Shown here: positions 4,132 through 29,425 of the stretch, one piece after another | Position numbering within the stretch: the stretch's first letter is position 1 | Layout: every line of letters begins with the position of its first letter | Origin: a virus | DNA: 29,425 nucleotides | Virus record (IMG/VR): IMGVR_UViG_3300009103_000121 | Coordinates: 1 to 29,425 of that record | Reading direction: 5' to 3' (one strand) | The notes under the pieces: generated by a model | The model's database searches: none | Told to the model about the DNA's origin: nothing | Seen by the model: only the letters and a program-made list of their open reading frames with translations | Translations under genes and position numbers: made by a program

Positions 4132-4144
4132 GTGTATTATATAG
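4132..4144 (+). promoter_or_regulatory. Candidate late promoter (GTGTA motif) before phoH-like gene
   Basis: GTGTATTATATAG lies 15 nt before ATG 4147, inside the intergenic gap of two divergent genes. It is one of about nine similar sites next to late-gene starts. Confidence 0.5.
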
Positions 4145-4146
4145 CA

Positions 4147-4872
4147 ATGGCACAAAAAAAGGCTTCTCAACAACATGGAGAGAATTTGAAGGCGCTAGAC
4201 TTTAATGGTCTTACTTCTCATTTTCACGTACAATCTAAAAGGTTAACAGAAAAACAAAAGCAGTTTCTCGAAATAGCACTAGATTCCAAGACAAACATTA
4301 TTTTCTGCGCTGGGCCTGCTGGAACAACCAAGACCTACGTCGCGGTATATTCTGCTTTGCGATATTTGAGCGCAAATGTAGATCTCGACTTGCTCTATGT
4401 TCGAACTGTGGTAGAAAGCGGAGAAAGGAATCTCGGCTCTCTTCCTGGAGACATAGATGAAAAATTCAATCCTTACATGGCTCCTCTCGATGATAAATTA
4501 CGTGAGATGATTAAGCCGTCAATCATTCCTGAGTTGATATCTAAATCAAGAATTCAAGCAATGCCTATTAACTATTTAAGGGGAGCGAGCTGGAACAATA
4601 AGATTGTTGTGGCCGATGAAGCTCAAAATTTTACTTTTAAAGAATTAACTACTTTAGTGACTAGACTAGGGGAAAGTAGCAAACTTATCATTTGCGGGGA
4701 CTTCCTTCAATCAGATATTAATGGAAAGACAGGATTCAAAACCATGTTTGATTTATTTAATGATTCATCGAGTCAAAGGAGAGGGATTCATACTTTTGAG
4801 TTCACCAAGGAAGATATCAAGCGAAGTAAAATTCTTAAGTATATCATAGGTAAAATCGAAGGAGCAAGCTAG
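4147..4872 (+). CDS. phoH: PhoH-family ATPase
   Basis: ATP-binding P-loop protein of the PhoH family, common in phages; the cellular role is still unsettled (RNA metabolism or phosphate-linked functions have been proposed). Walker A is GPAGTTKT at residues 56-63, the family PINYLRGASW segment lies at 140-149, Walker B plus the following Gln is IVVADEAQN at 153-161, and CGDFLQSD lies near 183-190. The 241-aa length is normal for the family's catalytic domain. GTG 4132 is in frame but falls inside the promoter-like motif, so ATG 4147 is the start. First gene of the rightward late block, divergent from the minus operon. Confidence 0.9.
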   Translation: MAQKKASQQHGENLKALDFNGLTSHFHVQSKRLTEKQKQFLEIALDSKTNIIFCAGPAGTTKTYVAVYSALRYLSANVDLDLLYVRTVVESGERNLGSLPGDIDEKFNPYMAPLDDKLREMIKPSIIPELISKSRIQAMPINYLRGASWNNKIVVADEAQNFTFKELTTLVTRLGESSKLIICGDFLQSDINGKTGFKTMFDLFNDSSSQRRGIHTFEFTKEDIKRSKILKYIIGKIEGAS

Positions 4873-5490: not shown

Positions 5491-5874
5491 ATGAATATTC
5501 AATATTGTACGTCATGTGGCTTTAAAAATGTGTACGGGGCACAGGCTCCGAATTTTTGTGCAAAGTGCGGGGCGCCCATGTCCCACACTTCCGTAGCAAA
5601 AAATAACGCTAATAATCCTGTTGTCGAAGAGGTCGAGCACGAAATAGTTTCAGAGGGAATTCCTAATATACGGGGGTTGGAATATGAAATCCAGGGGATG
5701 AATGAATCCAAGGTGACTTTTGAGGATCTCGTAAGACAGGGTCCGAGCTCAGAAGCTCCTAGGTCAAAAAAGAAAGGTCGCAAACCAAAACCTCCTACGC
5801 AGGATAAGATTTTGAAGGATAGCCTAGATATATGTAAAAGTGCTAAATTTAAGCCTTCCGACGAAATTGAGTGA
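5491..5874 (+). CDS. Zinc-ribbon protein with basic C-terminal tail (127 aa)
   Basis: The N-terminus has two CxxC knuckles: C6-x2-C9 (CTSCGF) and C23-x2-C26 (FCAKCGAP), the zinc-ribbon pattern. An acidic, probably disordered middle follows, then a basic stretch (SKKKGRKPKPP, about residues 92-102). It directly precedes and overlaps (by 35 nt) the sigma-factor gene. Zinc ribbons are common in transcription accessory proteins, so a co-factor of the phage sigma is a reasonable guess, not a finding. No enzymatic motif. Confidence 0.6.
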   Translation: MNIQYCTSCGFKNVYGAQAPNFCAKCGAPMSHTSVAKNNANNPVVEEVEHEIVSEGIPNIRGLEYEIQGMNESKVTFEDLVRQGPSSEAPRSKKKGRKPKPPTQDKILKDSLDICKSAKFKPSDEIE

Positions 5875-6577
5875 GAGTTACAAAGATAAAGCGGCAGTTA
5901 TAGATAAAGAGCTTGCCAAGCGGCGCCACAAGTGGTTTCTTTATTCTGTTGCATGGATGGATTTTGATGATGTTTGTCAAATCATCCGAGCGCATATCCA
6001 CAAGAAATGGGATCAATGGGATCAAGAACGCCCTTTAGAGCCATGGCTTAATCGAATTATTTCAAACCAGCTTAAAAATATTCTGCGCAATAATTACGGA
6101 AACTATGTGCGGCCCTGCTTGAATTGTCCTTTTAATCAAAGCGGACCTCCAGAGGGAGACGCGGCAGGGCTATGTGGATTTACGGAAAGCGGATTACAAT
6201 GCTCGGAATGCCCTCTTTATGCCAAATGGGAAGCTACCAAAAAAGACGCATATAATACTAAGATGGCGCTCACATTAGAAAATCATGCTCAGGAGGCAGC
6301 TCTCCTGCCAGAGCCCACCTTCTATGGCCTAGAGACGTCTATTCAAAAGCTACACCACCGAATGAAGGAAGAATTAAGCGAAAAAAAATGGAAAATATAT
6401 AAGATGCTATATATCGATAACTTGGACGATGAAGAAGTGGCGGAGGTTATGGGTTATAGAACTTCAGAGAAGGGCAGGACTGCAGGATATAAGCAACTAC
6501 GTAATTTAAAGAAATTTTTTAAAGAGAAAGCACAGGAACTGCTTTTAAAGTATGATATTATAATCGATGACAGATAA
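5840..6577 (+). CDS. Late transcription sigma factor, gp55/ECF-like, with Cys-rich insertion
   Basis: Directs RNA polymerase to phage promoters. Region 2 resembles residues 36-86: DFDDVCQIIRAHIHKKW, then PLEPWLNRIISNQLKNILRN, the typical 'DD-Q ... fi-W-ri--N---D-lR' pattern for -10 recognition and melting. Region 4 resembles residues 178-228: KKWKIYKMLYIDNLDDEEVA then EVMGYR, a helix-turn-helix. Between them lie five cysteines (C93, C96, C112, C121, C124) that could bind zinc. The frame starts at GTG 5840, inside the upstream gene; TTG 5867 is an alternative and neither has a clear Shine-Dalgarno. Its position before the head genes fits late-gene control, with the repeated GTGTA motif as candidate target. 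Confidence 0.75.
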   Translation: MLNLSLPTKLSESYKDKAAVIDKELAKRRHKWFLYSVAWMDFDDVCQIIRAHIHKKWDQWDQERPLEPWLNRIISNQLKNILRNNYGNYVRPCLNCPFNQSGPPEGDAAGLCGFTESGLQCSECPLYAKWEATKKDAYNTKMALTLENHAQEAALLPEPTFYGLETSIQKLHHRMKEELSEKKWKIYKMLYIDNLDDEEVAEVMGYRTSEKGRTAGYKQLRNLKKFFKEKAQELLLKYDIIIDDR

Positions 6578-8581: not shown

Positions 8582-8804
8582 AACCAGCCTTCCTTATCGA
8601 GGGGGCGGCCACTTTAAGTGTTTACCTGGGTTTATTAATCTATTCAGCAATGGCAAGTTTCTCGTAAAAGAAGGAGGGGTCGAGGTATATAGAGATATGG
8701 AAGACTATGATATTTACATTAAGCCTTACGATACGTGGCTCGATCTTGAGTATGCTTATGCAGAGGGCTTTCTGGACCCCTCAGAATTAAGGAGGTGGCC
8801 ATGA
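8559..8804 (+). CDS. Small hypothetical protein (81 aa) preceding terminase
   Basis: ATG 8559 lies inside the end of the nuclease gene (23-nt overlap), and its stop overlaps the terminase ATG (ATGA at 8801-8804). The product starts MELVVRIKTSLPYRGGGHFK and ends in an aromatic, acidic half (YDIYIKPYDTWLDLEYAYAE). The end of its coding sequence also supplies the strong Shine-Dalgarno of the terminase gene. Likely a small alpha/beta protein; a packaging accessory role is suggested only by tight coupling. Family not recognised. Confidence 0.6.
   Translation: MELVVRIKTSLPYRGGGHFKCLPGFINLFSNGKFLVKEGGVEVYRDMEDYDIYIKPYDTWLDLEYAYAEGFLDPSELRRWP
8789..8795 (+). promoter_or_regulatory. Strong Shine-Dalgarno of the terminase gene
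   Basis: AAGGAGG sits 5 nt before ATG 8801, one of the few perfect ribosome-binding sites in the window. It decides the start against the in-frame GTG at 8795, which overlaps the site itself. Confidence 0.8.
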
Positions 8805-10681
8805 GCTGGGAGGTAGGTAAGCAAAAGTATAAAAGCGGGAACGCTAATGAAAGGATTTCAAACAAGAAGGGGTTTCTTGAAGAAAAAGAAGCGAAGCTTT
8901 TGCTATACGAGTTCTTGAGAGAAAATACTACGTTCGCTGTTGATCTCCTTAGCGGAGTAAAGCTCTTTCCTTTTCAGCACATGGCTATTAAGGCTATGAT
9001 GGAGACTGACTATTTTTTAGGGGTGTGGTCGCGAGGCATGTCTAAATCGTTCACCACGGCTATTTTTGCTTATTTAGATGCAATTTTAAATCAAGGAGTA
9101 GAGATTGGTATTCTTTCTAAGTCCTTTAGACAGGCCAAAATGATCTTTAGGAAAATTGAAGACATCGCTGCAAAACCCGAGGCTAAATACCTGTCTCAAT
9201 GTATTACTCGCAAATCTAAACAAAATGACCAATGGACATTAGAGTTCGGAGATAGTAAGATTCATGCGTTGCCTCTTGGTGACGGAGAGAAGCTTCGTGG
9301 ATTCAGGTTTCATAGAATTATTATTGATGAATTTTTGCTTATGCCCGAAAGGGTTTATAATGAAGTTATTGTGCCGTTTTTGTCAGTTGTTCAAAACCCT
9401 ACTCAACGAGAGGATTTATACAAGCTTGAAAGCGCGTTAATTGATCAAGGTAAGCTGAGCGAGGAAGACCGACATAAGTGGCCAAATAATAAACTCATTA
9501 CTCTGTCGTCTGCTTCATATAAGTTCGAATATATGTATAAATTATATCAAGAATTTGAGAATCTTATTCATGGCCATATTAAAGAGGAAGAGAATCCGTA
9601 TGGAGAAAATGCTAGAAGGGTAATCATGCACTTCTCTTATGATTGTGCTCCTAAGGCTCTTTACGACCAAAACCTTATTAACCAAGCTAGGTCTTCTATG
9701 AGCCAGTCTCAGTTTGAGAGAGAGTTTGGGGCTGTATTTACTGATGATAGCTCTGGCTACTTTAAGACTTCTACAATGGCAAAATGTACAGTGCCCGACG
9801 GGGATACTCCTTCTATTGAAGTCGCTGGAGAGGCTGGAGCAAAATACCTTTTGGCTTTTGACCCCAGTTGGGCAGAAACAGAAAGTAGTGATGATTTCGC
9901 AATGCAAGTTATAAAACTTAATGATTCAAATAAAACTGGAGTGCTCGTCCACAGTTATGCATTGTCTGGATCGAAACTCAAGGATCACATTAATTATTTT
10001 CATTATATCTTAAAGAATTTTAATATTGTTGCTATTGTTGGAGACTATAATGGTGGAGTCCAATTTATTAATTCTGTTAATGAAAGTAAGCTATTTAAGG
10101 ATGATAACATCAAAATTAAAACTATCGACGCAAAACTTGATGACATGACCAAGTATAATGATTCATTACGAGAAGCGAAAAGGCAATATAAAGATGGTGC
10201 GATTTGCTACCTCAGGACCCCGACTTCTGCGTGGATTAGACAAGCAAACGAAATGTTACAAAAAAACTTTGATCACAAAAAGCTATGGTTTGCAGCTAGG
10301 GCTATTAATGATGAATATCATGCTCAGCGTACAAAAAAAATAAATGTTAAAAATATTAAGTATATTACGGATAAGGCCGACACTGCAAGCTTGATTATGG
10401 ACAATGACTCAAAAATGATAGATTTTTTAGAACATCAACACGATATGATAAATTTAACTAAGGCCGAATGTGCCCTTATTCAGATTAAAACGTCTCCCCA
10501 GGGTACGCAAACTTTTGACCTTCCCGACAATCTAAAAAGACAAACTGGCCCAAATAAAGCTCGGAAGGATTCTTATTCTGCTTTGGTTCTTGGAAATTGG
10601 ATGACCCAGATTTATTATGATATGATGAACTCTAAGGAAGCGCCTCCGCCAGTTGGGTTCACTCCTATGTTTATAAAGTAA
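8801..10681 (+). CDS. terL: Terminase large subunit (626 aa)
   Basis: ATP-driven DNA-packaging motor and headful nuclease acting at the portal. The N-terminal ATPase has FPFQHMAI (adenine motif, about 57-63), a variant Walker A WSRGMSKSFT (76-85) and Walker B RIIIDEF (172-178, catalytic Glu 177). The C-terminal RNase H-like nuclease has LLAFDPSWAE (D354), VAIVGDYNGG (D415) and a third acidic residue in KARKDSYSAL (D590). The length is typical for T4-like large terminases. ATG 8801 is chosen for the perfect Shine-Dalgarno. The stop overlaps the start of the next mini-gene (TAATG). Confidence 0.95.
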   Translation: MSWEVGKQKYKSGNANERISNKKGFLEEKEAKLLLYEFLRENTTFAVDLLSGVKLFPFQHMAIKAMMETDYFLGVWSRGMSKSFTTAIFAYLDAILNQGVEIGILSKSFRQAKMIFRKIEDIAAKPEAKYLSQCITRKSKQNDQWTLEFGDSKIHALPLGDGEKLRGFRFHRIIIDEFLLMPERVYNEVIVPFLSVVQNPTQREDLYKLESALIDQGKLSEEDRHKWPNNKLITLSSASYKFEYMYKLYQEFENLIHGHIKEEENPYGENARRVIMHFSYDCAPKALYDQNLINQARSSMSQSQFEREFGAVFTDDSSGYFKTSTMAKCTVPDGDTPSIEVAGEAGAKYLLAFDPSWAETESSDDFAMQVIKLNDSNKTGVLVHSYALSGSKLKDHINYFHYILKNFNIVAIVGDYNGGVQFINSVNESKLFKDDNIKIKTIDAKLDDMTKYNDSLREAKRQYKDGAICYLRTPTSAWIRQANEMLQKNFDHKKLWFAARAINDEYHAQRTKKINVKNIKYITDKADTASLIMDNDSKMIDFLEHQHDMINLTKAECALIQIKTSPQGTQTFDLPDNLKRQTGPNKARKDSYSALVLGNWMTQIYYDMMNSKEAPPPVGFTPMFIK

Positions 10682-12931: not shown

Positions 12932-14500
12932 ATGAAGGATTTTAAATATAAAACGAGTTTCTCAAGCTCTATATTGGCTTGTACTGATTTTGAAACATTG
13001 GGCCTCTCGGAGACAAAAGAAGAGGGTCCTTGGAATATAAGTAGAGCTTCTTTAGAATCCTTAAAAGAGGTGATGCCCGCAGGAATTGATTTAAATAAGA
13101 ATATTGATTTGCTGGGCGTGGCATTTAATGCCGCAGTGGTTAATACATTTAATAAGAATGGAGATGGCATCTCCACAGAAACCGCTCTCTCAATAAAAGA
13201 TTATTTTACTCATAAGCCTACAAATATTGAGCATGATCGACAAAAGGTTGTTGGGCATGTGGTTAGTAGTTCGTTTAGTGAGTTTGGTTCGAGCAAGCTT
13301 TTGACTAACGAGGAGGTTGCGTTAAAGAGAGACCCTTTTAACATCGCACTGGCGGCTGTAGTTTACAAAACAGTCAACCGCCCATTCGCTGCATTATTAG
13401 AGAACGCAGAAGAAGAAGAGTTCGGAGAAATTGTTTCTGCCAGTTGGGAGATTGGCTTTAATGATTATGTAATCGCATTAGGAAGCAAGAACCTAAGCGA
13501 AGCAACATTGATTACCGCTCCCGAACAAATAAAAGAATTTGATGAATTTTTATTATCCAATGGAGGAGAAGGTAAAACTGAGGATGGCCAAAATGTATAT
13601 CGCCTTGTAAAAGGAGAGGTTTACCCTTTGGGTATCGGTTTTACCACTAATCCCGCAGCTGATGTTAAAGGCCTAGTAGTTGTTAACGAGAATCAAGAGC
13701 GGTGTCTTGCGGTAGATAAAAAATCAAAAAACAGTTCACATTCAAAACAAACAGTTGTAAACACTGAAAAACAATCTAAAGCTATGGAAAATCAACAAAT
13801 TACAGAAAAGTTACAAGAAATTTTAGATAACAAGCTTTCCGAACAAAAATACGCAGAAGAAACCGTCGCTAATATTGTGACGGTAATTTCTGATGCAATC
13901 AAGGAAAAGAGCGCAGAATATGTAGAAGACCGCACCCGACTTGAAGAGGAGAAAGATCGCCTCGCAAAAGCCGAAGAAGAATTCAAAAGTTCTGTGTCTG
14001 AGCTCCAGGATAAACTTAAATCTACAGAATCTCAATTGTCTGAGTTGCAAAAAGAAAAAGACGAGCGCGAGAGTCAAGCTAGGTTTAATGAGCGAATGGA
14101 GTCCTTAGATGAAATCTACGAACTTGAAGATGAAGATCGTCAGGTTTTGGCAGAAGAAGTCTCTTCTTTGGATGACTCGGAAGAAAGCTTTGCATCTCTT
14201 CAAGGTAAATTATCTATTATGTGGAGACACAAGGATAAATCTTATCTTAAAGAACAACAGGACATTATGGAAGCTCGAGTATCTGAGCAGGTTAATAAAA
14301 GACTTGCTGAACTCGAGAAAACCGATGCTTCTGTCGAGGATGCACCCGAAAGTGAATCTACCGAAGAAATTTTAGCGAATGCAGAGGTGGAGGATGAGGT
14401 AATCACCAATAACAATGGTCAAGCTTCTAAGCAAGAAGCAACGCTTACCGAACAATTTAGAGCAGTTTTTAATAGAGAAAACGTTAACATTAAATATTAA
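12932..14500 (+). CDS. Prohead protease fused to scaffold (522 aa)
   Basis: The N-terminal half resembles caudoviral prohead proteases: YFTHKPTNIEHDRQKVVGHV (residues 91-110) with candidate catalytic His 101, followed about 70 residues later by EIVSASWEIGF (S169 or S171). From about residue 270 the sequence changes to a charged coiled coil (EEEKDRLAKAEEEFKSSVSE, SQLSELQKEKDERESQ) with an acidic, disordered end, the usual make-up of an internal scaffold. It lies between portal and capsid genes, as both functions should. An internal ATG at 13784 (residue 285, MENQQITEKLQEIL) marks the scaffold boundary and could start a separate scaffold protein. Protease class is inferred by pattern. Confidence 0.75.
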   Translation: MKDFKYKTSFSSSILACTDFETLGLSETKEEGPWNISRASLESLKEVMPAGIDLNKNIDLLGVAFNAAVVNTFNKNGDGISTETALSIKDYFTHKPTNIEHDRQKVVGHVVSSSFSEFGSSKLLTNEEVALKRDPFNIALAAVVYKTVNRPFAALLENAEEEEFGEIVSASWEIGFNDYVIALGSKNLSEATLITAPEQIKEFDEFLLSNGGEGKTEDGQNVYRLVKGEVYPLGIGFTTNPAADVKGLVVVNENQERCLAVDKKSKNSSHSKQTVVNTEKQSKAMENQQITEKLQEILDNKLSEQKYAEETVANIVTVISDAIKEKSAEYVEDRTRLEEEKDRLAKAEEEFKSSVSELQDKLKSTESQLSELQKEKDERESQARFNERMESLDEIYELEDEDRQVLAEEVSSLDDSEESFASLQGKLSIMWRHKDKSYLKEQQDIMEARVSEQVNKRLAELEKTDASVEDAPESESTEEILANAEVEDEVITNNNGQASKQEATLTEQFRAVFNRENVNIKY

Positions 14501-25971: not shown

Positions 25972-28900
25972 ATGGCGGATATTTCAGTAAGAGTAAAAGC
26001 TGTAGGATTACAGCAAAGCATTACGCAGCAGGCTCAAGCAGCGCAGCGTACGGTAAGCCGTTTGAATTTAACCCCACGAATGGACGCCAAGGGACTGCAA
26101 CAACCCTTGGGAAGAATCACGGGAAACCTTAGTGAGTTTAATAAATCTCTTGACGCTTCTACCGCTCGTGTATTTGCCTTTGGAGCTACAGTATCAGTTA
26201 TTAATGGTATTGCTGATGCATTTAAGGGAGTTGTTTCTGCCGTAATAGAAGTAGAGCGAGCTCTAGAAAATATTAATGTAGTCATGGGGTTGACCACTGC
26301 TCAACTAGCCGATTACTCCGATGCTCTTTTTGATGTTGCGAAAAATACCAGTCAAACCTTTCAAACTGTAGCTACAGCCGCCACGGAATTTGCGAGGCAG
26401 GGCTTAAGCGCTGAAGAAACACTACAAAGAGTTAATGACGCCCTTATACTTACTCGTTTATCGGGATTGGGTGCAGAGCAGTCGGTTGCTTCGCTCACGG
26501 CGGTAGTTAATGGCTTTGCTCGGGAGAGCCTCAATACAACAGAAATCGTTAATAGACTAGCTAATGTTGACGCGAGTTTTGCGGTTAGCTCTAAAGATTT
26601 GGCAGACGCCTTGGCTCGAGCGGGAGCGACCGCACAGTCTGCGGGCGTAAACTTTAATGAACTTTTGGCCGTTGTAACATCAGTGCAGCAGCAGACCGCT
26701 CGTGGCGGGTCTGTTATTGGCAATGCTTTTAAAAGTATATTTACTCGTATACAGAGAGCAAAAGTACGAGAAACACTAGAGGGTGTTGGCGTTGCTACTA
26801 CAGATGCTTTCGGAAACTTTAGATCAGCAATTGCCATCTTGAAGGATTACGCTTCTGTTTATGGCACGCTTTCAGACGCGCAAAAAGCCTATACCGCTGA
26901 ACAAATCGCAGGAGTCTTCCAGGTTAATAATTTAAAAGCTTTAATTAATGATTTGAGTGGTGATTTTTCTATTTACGAACAAGCTTTAGGCACCGCAGCT
27001 GCCACCACCGACGAAGCCACTCGCAGAAACGAGCAATTAAATCAAACTTTTGCGGCATTGGGCGCCCAAGCTGGAGAGAGCATTCGGCAGTTGGCGGATT
27101 CTTTTGGAGAACTTACGCTTGAGCCCGCCATGGAAAGAGTACTCGGCATGGTTCAGACAATCGTGGACGCCTTGAGCGGAATGCTGGGAGAGAAAGATGG
27201 AGATAATTTAATGGGCAAATTCTTTAAGGGAATGGGAGCTTTTATTTCTGGCCCTGGCCTCGCTTTGATTTCTGCTGCATTTCTTAAATTGTTTATGTTA
27301 GTGGGAAAGCATGCGACTGCCGCTATCAGGGAGATGTTTAAAATTTCCTCCGAAGCCCAGCGACAAAAAGGGCTACAAGAAGCGATCTTACAGATACTAA
27401 TTAAAGATGAGCAGGCTTATACAAAAATCTTAGCCGCCAGCGGTAACCAAAATAAACAAGCAAAAATTTTAGTAGGCATAATAAAGCAGGCCAATGCGGA
27501 ATACGCAAAACAACAAGCTCTTCTTTCTAATTTGTCTAAATCAGGAGCCATGAAGGGGTTTGGCGTCGGGAAGAGTGGATACATACAGCCTATAAGCCGC
27601 AAGGCAGAAGGGCATACGCCGACTATGGCTGGAGGAGGCATGCCCGAAGTACAGGCTGCAGAAGATGCAGGTTATGCCTCTCCCGTAAAGCCACAACAGG
27701 TTAGGCAGATGAATGTCCCCAATTTGGGTAAGGTAATGTACAACACTCAGGAGAAAATCGTTAATGTTCCTAATTTGGCGCAACCATTTATTGTCCCACC
27801 TGCTTCTTCTAAGGCGTACCCTAATTATGCAAGCCAAGTTAAGGAGCAGTTTGGAGAGCCAATGGCCAAGAATGTTTTAGGTAGAGCGTTTACTCCAAAA
27901 CAAAGAGCTTTTGCTGAGGGGTTTAGCCCCATTAAAAAGGGTTCGTTAATGCTTGAAAAAGAATACGCAAGCAATGCTTCGGGTTTGGTTCCTAATTTCA
28001 TAGTTAAGCCCGCGCAGTTACAGCAGGAACTTATTAAACAAGGTTCATTAAGAAAAGGGGATATCCTGGATAATAAAAAAACTTATGAATATAAGTTTTC
28101 AGATGGAACTAGCGTACTCGGAAAGCCTGGAGAGCTTAGGGGTGCAGTTACCATGAATAATGGTAAGCTTGTTAAAAATGAAAACTCTTTATTTTTTAAA
28201 GATCGCTCAATAAATCCCGCTTCTAGGAAGAGTCTAGATCAAAGCTCTCGGGTTTCGATGCTGTTACCTGAAGCTACAGCAGGAGATGCAGCGACTCGTG
28301 TGGCGACACAAATTTCAGGGGGCACCTTAACCGAAACCCTAGGTAAACCAGGCGCACTGACAGAGATAGTGGGGCCTGGCACAATAAAAAAATTAGGAGG
28401 AGAGCAGTCTGCAAAAACCAAATTACAAACCGCATTCTCCAATGATGTTTTCGATGTTAAGTTTTCTAAGTCAGGAGTGCAAGATTTAGAAAACCAAACT
28501 TCACTGCGAGAAAAAATAGATAGCGATTTATCTTCAAAGGTCACGCAGGTTTTGACTGGAAACGCCAAACAACTTATTAGCAAGTCAAATTTAAAAAATG
28601 TACCAATTAATCAGGCAGAAGTCAAGGGCCAAGCCGAAAAATTAGTAGGCGCGAATTCTAAGATGACTGGCACAATGTTTGAGGATATTGTTACTATTGC
28701 CGTAGGCAAATCAAATGAATTCTCTAGTCAAGATCATTATAGAAATTGGGACTTCCAAGGAGTTGGTGCTTTAAACAATTTATTCGATAAGCGAGTTAAT
28801 GAGTTTGCTGATACAAAACGTTCTGATCTTCCTCACGCCCGCGCTTCAATGGCAAAAAAAATATTATTTGGCACTCCATTAGGAAAGCAAACCCTGAAAA

Positions 28901-29425
28901 GCGCAGCCCAACAGGCGCTCCCAACGCAGCGGGCAGCTAAGGCTAAGACTAGGGCGTCGGGCTTGGTTCCTAATTTAGGCCGACTAGATGGTCAGCAAGA
29001 GTTCTTTCGTAATGCAGGAAAAAAGATGGGAGGACGGAACCCTAGAGCTAAGATTTTTGATGTAGATGATACATTAATGGATACTTCTGTAGCTATGAAA
29101 AAGATGGGTATTAAGCCTGGAGATCAGAGAATCTATGGAGACAAAAATGTTTCACGAGACATCGCTAGACAGGCAAAGCCTACGCTTTTGGGAGAAAAAG
29201 TAAAAGCTCTAAAAAATAAAGATAATGTTTTTCTCTTAACTGACGCTGGTCCTGCGCGCAATCAAGTTCTTTCGGAAAAATTTGATATACCCCTAAAGAA
29301 AATAATTGCTTTACGGGATCCCGCGCAAATCTCAAAGTTTGGTTTGGATTCGGTAGTCCCCTCTGCCCAAGGTCTTCGTAGGCAGAAAAAAGACCCTTCT
29401 TATAAACTAGAAAAAGGTTCGCGGG
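25972..29425 (+). CDS. Tail tape-measure protein with embedded enzyme-like domains (3' end outside window)
   Basis: The frame is open from ATG 25972 to the window end (1151 residues so far, no stop). Residues about 70-340 are a TP901-type tape-measure core (LANVDASFAVSSKDLADALA, FNELLAVVTSVQQQTARGGS). A Gly-rich hydrophobic segment lies at about 416-443 (FISGPGLALISAAFLKLFML), as expected for a tape measure that enters the host membrane. From about 580 on come four VPN(L/F) motifs (581-585, 598-602, 672-676, 998-1002). Between the third and fourth is a PD-(D/E)XK-like region (E904, D927, D947-x-K949), and after the fourth a HAD-like start (FDVDDTLMD, D1030/D1032; LLTDA, T1090). Core function is sure; the enzyme parts are inferred by motif. 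Confidence 0.9.
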   Translation, partial: MADISVRVKAVGLQQSITQQAQAAQRTVSRLNLTPRMDAKGLQQPLGRITGNLSEFNKSLDASTARVFAFGATVSVINGIADAFKGVVSAVIEVERALENINVVMGLTTAQLADYSDALFDVAKNTSQTFQTVATAATEFARQGLSAEETLQRVNDALILTRLSGLGAEQSVASLTAVVNGFARESLNTTEIVNRLANVDASFAVSSKDLADALARAGATAQSAGVNFNELLAVVTSVQQQTARGGSVIGNAFKSIFTRIQRAKVRETLEGVGVATTDAFGNFRSAIAILKDYASVYGTLSDAQKAYTAEQIAGVFQVNNLKALINDLSGDFSIYEQALGTAAATTDEATRRNEQLNQTFAALGAQAGESIRQLADSFGELTLEPAMERVLGMVQTIVDALSGMLGEKDGDNLMGKFFKGMGAFISGPGLALISAAFLKLFMLVGKHATAAIREMFKISSEAQRQKGLQEAILQILIKDEQAYTKILAASGNQNKQAKILVGIIKQANAEYAKQQALLSNLSKSGAMKGFGVGKSGYIQPISRKAEGHTPTMAGGGMPEVQAAEDAGYASPVKPQQVRQMNVPNLGKVMYNTQEKIVNVPNLAQPFIVPPASSKAYPNYASQVKEQFGEPMAKNVLGRAFTPKQRAFAEGFSPIKKGSLMLEKEYASNASGLVPNFIVKPAQLQQELIKQGSLRKGDILDNKKTYEYKFSDGTSVLGKPGELRGAVTMNNGKLVKNENSLFFKDRSINPASRKSLDQSSRVSMLLPEATAGDAATRVATQISGGTLTETLGKPGALTEIVGPGTIKKLGGEQSAKTKLQTAFSNDVFDVKFSKSGVQDLENQTSLREKIDSDLSSKVTQVLTGNAKQLISKSNLKNVPINQAEVKGQAEKLVGANSKMTGTMFEDIVTIAVGKSNEFSSQDHYRNWDFQGVGALNNLFDKRVNEFADTKRSDLPHARASMAKKILFGTPLGKQTLKSAAQQALPTQRAAKAKTRASGLVPNLGRLDGQQEFFRNAGKKMGGRNPRAKIFDVDDTLMDTSVAMKKMGIKPGDQRIYGDKNVSRDIARQAKPTLLGEKVKALKNKDNVFLLTDAGPARNQVLSEKFDIPLKKIIALRDPAQISKFGLDSVVPSAQGLRRQKKDPSYKLEKGSR
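28654..28866 (+). other. PD-(D/E)XK-like region within tape measure
   Basis: Residues about 895-965: GTMFEDIVTIAVG (E904), RNWDFQGVG (D927), EFADTKRSD (D947-T-K949), then a helix SMAKKILFG. A helix Glu, an Asp, and D-x-K about 20 residues later is the metal-site layout of the PD-(D/E)XK nuclease fold. Whether the domain is active cannot be judged from sequence alone. Confidence 0.45.
29035..29425 (+). other. HAD-phosphatase-like domain within tape measure (cut by window end)
   Basis: Residues from about 1022: motif I IFDVDDTLMDTS (D1030, D1032, T1034) and motif II VFLLTDAGPARNQVLSEKF (T1090). A later Lys-rich segment (LRRQKKDPSYKLEKG) is where motif III Lys would fall; motif IV would lie beyond the window. 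The pattern recalls DNA/RNA 3'-phosphatase and other small HAD enzymes; the substrate is unknown. Confidence 0.65.

Follow-up and report, generated by a model that had tools for sequence, protein, structure and literature searches.

A conserved nuclease-like domain, probably of the PD-(D/E)XK type, in the tape measure protein of an uncultured tailed phage

The window analysed here, the whole stretch of DNA under study, is a complete IMG/VR record of 29,425 bases, and its final open reading frame (ORF) exits at the contig end. This ORF encodes a tail tape measure protein (TMP) whose 3' end is cut off by the contig boundary. The assignment was supported by matches to Pfam PhageMin_Tail (E 7e-28) and PHROG 4211 (E 2.7e-52), and by gene context: a long protein with a PhageMin_Tail/TMP core, located in a structural gene cluster with a terminase upstream. 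A further Pfam match to Osteoregulin (E 0.008-0.19) was under its cut-off and was taken as chance. Elsewhere in the window we observed a PhoH-like ATPase gene (4132-4872, E 4e-50), a gene containing a sigma-70 region 2 domain (5840-6577; PF04542, E 2e-6, above cut-off), possibly a phage late sigma factor, which sits shortly upstream of the terminase gene (8795-10681), and a possible capsid protease or scaffold gene (12932-14500) with a weak Phage_GPO match (E 2e-4, under cut-off). Features of the TMP gene are collected in Table 1.

Table 1. Features of the tape measure protein gene and its nuclease-like domain (positions in the window; domain counts refer to the alignment of 78 sequences).
Feature	Position	Strand	Basis or remark
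Tail tape measure protein (TMP)	25972-29424	+	ORF, first 1151 aa; Pfam and PHROG tape measure matches
Conserved TMP core, aa 38-443	26083-27300	+	42-50% identity to 7 relatives
Conserved linker segment VRQMNVPNLGKVMYN...PPASSKAYPNYASQVKEQFG	27670-27855	+	Counterpart in relatives
ASGLVPN motif 1, aa 669-675	27976-27996	+	N-terminal boundary of the inserted module
Small beta-rich segment before the nuclease-like domain, aa 679-738	28006-28185	+	pLDDT 71-85 locally in single-sequence model; weak
Nuclease-like domain, aa 749-979	28216-28908	+	AF2 with 61 homologues, pLDDT 87.7, pTM 0.80
Predicted catalytic third of the nuclease-like domain, aa 895-965	28654-28866	+	Alignment conservation
G900	28669-28671	+	Invariant, 78/78
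E904, predicted metal ligand, on helix	28681-28683	+	77 E and 1 D, n=78
D927, predicted metal ligand, directly before strand	28750-28752	+	77 D and 1 E, n=78
D947, D/E of (D/E)XK, on strand	28810-28812	+	63 D and 15 E, n=78
K949, K of (D/E)XK	28816-28818	+	78/78
K963, helix following DxK	28858-28860	+	Invariant lysine, 78/78; missed in the first-pass annotation
ASGLVPN motif 2, aa 995-1001	28954-28974	+	C-terminal boundary of the module

A first-pass annotation of this DNA had proposed a PD-(D/E)XK nuclease-like module lying between two ASGLVPN motifs of the TMP. Translation of the window placed E904, D927, D947 and K949 exactly where that annotation had them, and the flanking motifs were indeed found, beginning at aa 669 and 995. 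The span that it assigned to the module (28654-28866) holds the predicted catalytic residues but is only one third of the predicted domain, which runs from about 28216 to 28908 (aa 749-979). The spacing E-23-D-20-DxK falls within what we take to be the range for restriction enzymes and Holliday junction resolvases, and was used as a lead only. The annotation had also paired the nuclease with a phosphatase in the same protein, as a possible set for attack on host DNA, superinfection exclusion or shielding of the ends of incoming DNA. A HAD-like stretch with the motif KIFDVDDTLMDTS (DxDxT) is present from 29050-29088 (aa 1027-1039) onward, past the second ASGLVPN motif, but its Pfam E-value is just 0.19, and the domain is incomplete at the contig end.

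Searched by itself as a single sequence, the module gave no match in Pfam, PHROGs, PDB, 50,697 named phage records or IMG/VR. The TMP core (aa 38-443), which is independent of the module, was used as bait for relatives and returned two at 49%, both with a module at the same place between GFIPNF-type motifs, containing GAFEVGLGLALG...EFDV...LRKLFGYNTPLADFKINDSS...MADKI. Additional scans yielded 11 distinct relative sequences, and alignment of these with the window showed the columns of E904, D927, D947 and K949 to be invariant. An earlier profile of five close relatives left the window at shuffle level (4.2 bits), whereas the later profile, built without the window, placed the window module (23.1 bits) ahead of all 10,000 composition shuffles, the best of which scored 16.9; profile diversity therefore mattered. 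Viral contigs were also scanned with the window serving as the confirming sequence, and gave no match.

Recruitment by the TMP core only avoids selection by motif, and the best 80 of 560 IMG/VR relatives obtained in this way were kept. An HMM detected the domain in 64 of these 80 TMPs, 76 of which were long enough to judge. The 16 TMPs lacking it comprised 4 shortened by a contig end and 12 long proteins without a recognisable copy, so the domain is inessential to a tape measure. The pattern G-x-x-[FL]-E...D...[DE]-x-K...K occurred within aa 641-1020 in 56 of the same 80 TMPs; shuffles averaged 0.38 matches and never gave more than 2. The 64 copies start at a median of aa 760, mostly at aa 680-810, and 53 of them have PNF-type (GLVPN-like) motifs on both sides. 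The closest of the best 80 of 560, L037, at 74% in the core, has a homologue of the module over its full length (phmmer E 1e-63), and the linker segment that precedes the module in the window precedes it also in L037, L006 and L008-L010.

Several features of these relatives concern the neighbourhood of the domain. Five TMPs of the best 80 of 560 (L037, L038, L051, L054 and L056) contain two copies, and in the second copy of L037 (aa 1529-1660) D replaces the first E and ExK replaces DxK. In L002, L006, L008-L010 and L016-L020, the domain is followed by a short conserved module, SxRVGQDSRL..NP.GLGVYNTKDEPxGL, which is not in the window. The TMP of L103 has a GNAT acetyltransferase module at about aa 1560-1616 (within L103:12884-16186; PF00583, E 7e-6, above cut-off) between two PNF-type motifs, which lends support to the idea that enzyme modules are exchangeable. 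The gene after the tape measure encodes a tandem KYGYEQ-type repeat in L002 (15422-18955) and L003 (11545-15006), and its copy number differs between these two near-identical phages.

Conservation was evaluated in an alignment of 78 domain sequences whose mean pairwise identity is about 0.2 and of which 64 are at <80% identity. These were gathered by iterated profile, which favours motif bearers, and the core-only count given above serves as the control. Only eight positions are more than 80% conserved, and five of these are acidic or lysine, in catalytic order; when 113 window positions are ranked by conservation, E904, D927, D947 and K949 fall in the top 8, while F903 is kept in 76 of 78 and F938 in 72 of 78 sequences. 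Homologues lacking the four residues, which the first-pass annotation had named as evidence against itself, were clearly not what the alignment revealed, all four being near-invariant. The PD-(D/E)XK class is named for an exchange of D and E two residues before an invariant K, with E and D upstream. This signature, E...D...(D/E)-x-K, is conserved in the homologues, exchange included.

The rest of the domain changes quickly. It diverges far faster than the TMP core, with 548 pairs showing core identity >0.6 and domain identity <0.3 and a matrix correlation of 0.31 to 0.38, and the comparison revealed no pair with a close domain on distant cores. The domain therefore diversifies in place while the predicted catalytic residues are held. 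Such quick divergence around fixed residues would be expected for a domain engaged in genetic conflict, and suggests a changing target or inhibitor, such as host or rival DNA or a defence.

In the AF2 model of the domain, the N-terminal strands 752-765, 774-780 and 826-836 are followed by helices 845-871 and 881-894. E904 lies in helix 896-910, D927 immediately before strand 928-929, D947 in strand 945-948 with K949 next to it, and K963 in helix 954-967, matching the secondary-structure context of PD-(D/E)XK enzymes (E on alpha-1, D at beta-2, (D/E)xK on beta-3, followed by alpha-2). There is no strand between E904 and D927, the site of canonical beta-1, and residues 909-928 are the least confident of the model (pLDDT 67); the N-terminal strands may complete the sheet instead. 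A single-sequence AF2 model of aa 669-1000 (pLDDT 45.7) was kept out of fold claims. Foldseek against PDB and BFVD returned no match of any kind at E <= 0.001, hence none that is restriction-endonuclease-like, and VIA-align, run on Foldseek's own list only, likewise gave no restriction-endonuclease-like match, helical segments being dominant. A missing match is an absence, and neither shows nor excludes a restriction-endonuclease fold. The fold check proposed in the first-pass annotation gave a mixed outcome: the model is confident and places the residues in the right context, but no Foldseek match accompanies it and it shows no first core strand. By sequence, the domain has no family match in Pfam, PHROG or PDB. 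Comparison by hhalign with genome-built alignments of YraN, VRR-NUC, Mrr and RecB also gave no match, though this comparison was without power because five of six positive-control pairs failed too, only YraN-Mrr being recognised.

On the conservation and the model together, the domain is very probably an enzyme with an E/D/(D/E)xK site, and a nuclease is the likely form that this enzyme takes. We regard it as a probable PD-(D/E)XK-type nuclease, placed by signature and secondary-structure context rather than by a fold or sequence match. The nuclease reading first proposed for this locus holds for the residues, their order, their conservation and their secondary-structure context, but not for a restriction-endonuclease fold match. 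The explanation that we favour, and consider likely, is that the TMP has built into it, among modules separated by GLVPN-type linkers, a nuclease-like domain that is catalytically active, depends on metal and has a PD-(D/E)XK-type site.

Alternative explanations differ in how much of this evidence they accommodate. Chance likeness of scattered acidic residues in a low-information stretch could have produced empty single-sequence searches and a first small profile at shuffle level (4.2 bits), but not residues that are invariant in a family reached through the TMP core, nor a score for the window above all 10,000 shuffles; the alignment, the shuffle ranking, the L037 homologue and the core-only motif count exclude it, and its probability is close to nil. 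A module with a structural role, as spacer or in folding, whose residues are conserved for stability and not for catalysis, would suit the need of tape measures for long spacers and the spacer-like position of the module between linkers. It is very unlikely, because only eight positions exceed 80% conservation at about 0.2 identity and five of them are acidic or lysine in catalytic order, whereas in structural modules it is the hydrophobic positions that are conserved. An enzyme using a metal through the same E/D/(D/E)xK/K residues might instead be neither a nuclease nor of restriction-endonuclease fold, but an effector that modifies, say, nucleotides, sugars or proteins. That would agree with a confident model lacking any Foldseek match to known folds, with the missing sequence match to nuclease families, with a 230-residue domain whose N-terminal strands lie outside the canonical core order, and with the GNAT acetyltransferase module in another TMP of the group (L103). 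Against it, D/E exchange with an invariant K, in the order E-helix, D-strand, DxK-strand and K-helix, is the PD-(D/E)XK signature, and we know of no other enzyme class with the exact E/D/(D/E)xK/K pattern; we consider such a non-nuclease enzyme unlikely.

The target of a nuclease is a separate question, and processing of phage DNA ends is the main alternative to host DNA, rival DNA or a defence target. A nuclease acting on the phage's own DNA would trim or resolve the end beside the tape measure during packaging or ejection. This is a sub-case of the nuclease reading, so its probability, which we judge to be low, overlaps that of the favoured explanation. Virion or head nucleases of restriction-endonuclease (REase) fold with a packaging role do exist, such as T4 gp4 (PMC7824862), and the module has a fixed place in the N-terminal third of the TMP. 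However, a conserved assembly step accounts less well than a role in conflict for how quickly the domain diverges compared with the core, and for its absence from 12 long TMPs among the best 80 of 560.

For the favoured nuclease, the predicted active site consists of E904, D927, D947 and K949; K963 probably either joins them as a fifth active-site residue or contacts the DNA. TMPs in general are known to be ejected with the genome. The TMP would be packed inside the tail tube and ejected with or slightly ahead of the phage DNA, and the domain would fold or become exposed beyond the envelope. There it would cut nucleic acid where DNA enters, and its likeliest targets would be the DNA of the host or of a resident rival, or DNA-based defence intermediates; alternatively, the incoming phage end could be the substrate and be trimmed. 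We infer the nuclease chemistry, the use of metal, the TMP-linked ejection, the substrate and the benefit alike. The lambda TMP is located at the inner membrane during injection (PMC13190303), and a nuclease carried there with the TMP would act before expression of any phage gene. A co-delivered nuclease would need a means of sparing the phage's own DNA, and none was identified in this analysis. We also offer a broader proposal, as a serious possibility that falls short of being likely: that a large clade of uncultured tailed phages uses the tape measure as a delivery vehicle for a new nuclease family that diverges fast and combines a PD-(D/E)XK-like site with a permuted or otherwise new fold, threaded through the tail to attack nucleic acid at entry, beside exchangeable enzyme modules separated by GLVPN-type linkers.

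The distribution of the family was assessed in named phages and in cellular genomes. Six modules searched against named phages (~50,000 records, at tblastn sensitivity) gave only chance-level Gordonia matches (E 1). GTDB genomes searched by domain pattern gave no match, and 198 cellular genomes of one phylum gave a single match, in MAG G013, which holds the TMP contig L119; the only TMP relatives in GTDB were contigs in MAGs. Related tape measures on L117-L122 are on contigs binned to Neomarinimicrobiota, Halobacteriovorax and Flavobacteriales MAGs, which are host hints only, as binning may be wrong. The nuclease-like domain is an uncatalogued TMP domain family, absent from Pfam and PHROGs, and a search of ~5.4 million open papers, a corpus that mostly leaves subscription papers and preprints uncovered, turned up no tape measure described as carrying a PD-(D/E)XK domain. 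Tape measures are usually viewed as rulers and channels, and the enzymatic extras known in them are cell-wall hydrolase motifs. This uncatalogued domain occurs in 64 of the 76 assessable TMPs among the best 80 of 560, and if it is a nuclease, the tape measure would be a protein effector acting before phage gene expression.

Compared with known systems, the domain resembles the PD-(D/E)XK superfamily (restriction endonucleases, Holliday junction resolvases, VRR-NUC, Mrr, YraN and RecB-type nucleases) in having E on a helix, D before a strand and (D/E)xK on the next strand, in the basic residue conserved in the following helix, and in D/E exchange at the same place. It differs from the superfamily in lacking a sequence or fold match and a resolved beta-1, in its extra N-terminal strands and long helices, and in its location in a tail protein. 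Polyvalent proteins carry several enzyme domains per phage protein and are proposed to enter the host together with the DNA (Iyer et al. 2017, PMC5512222); they are stand-alone multidomain cargo, in contrast to the modules inside the tape measure described here, and the text of that paper makes no mention of tape measures. Possible content of a polyvalent type in the window would be the nuclease-like domain plus the HAD-like stretch (Pfam E 0.19); other TMPs have two domain copies or a GNAT module. Peptidoglycan hydrolase motifs are described in the TMPs of mycobacteriophage TM4 and enterococcal phage lysins (PMC10194240; a reference in PMC13277306), and such modules are enzymatic and inside the tape measure, as here, but act on the cell wall, whereas the signature found here is that of a nuclease of nucleic acid. 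The phage T4 head completion protein gp4 is a non-specific DNase required for packaging (PMC7824862), and is thus a virion-associated REase-fold nuclease of a tailed phage, but it is a head protein with a packaging role and is not in the tape measure. On the side of the bacterium, the nuclease SNIPE cuts DNA at the tape measure as it is injected (PMC13190303); a nuclease of the phage in the same place, if true, would be the mirror image of SNIPE, and bears on defence.
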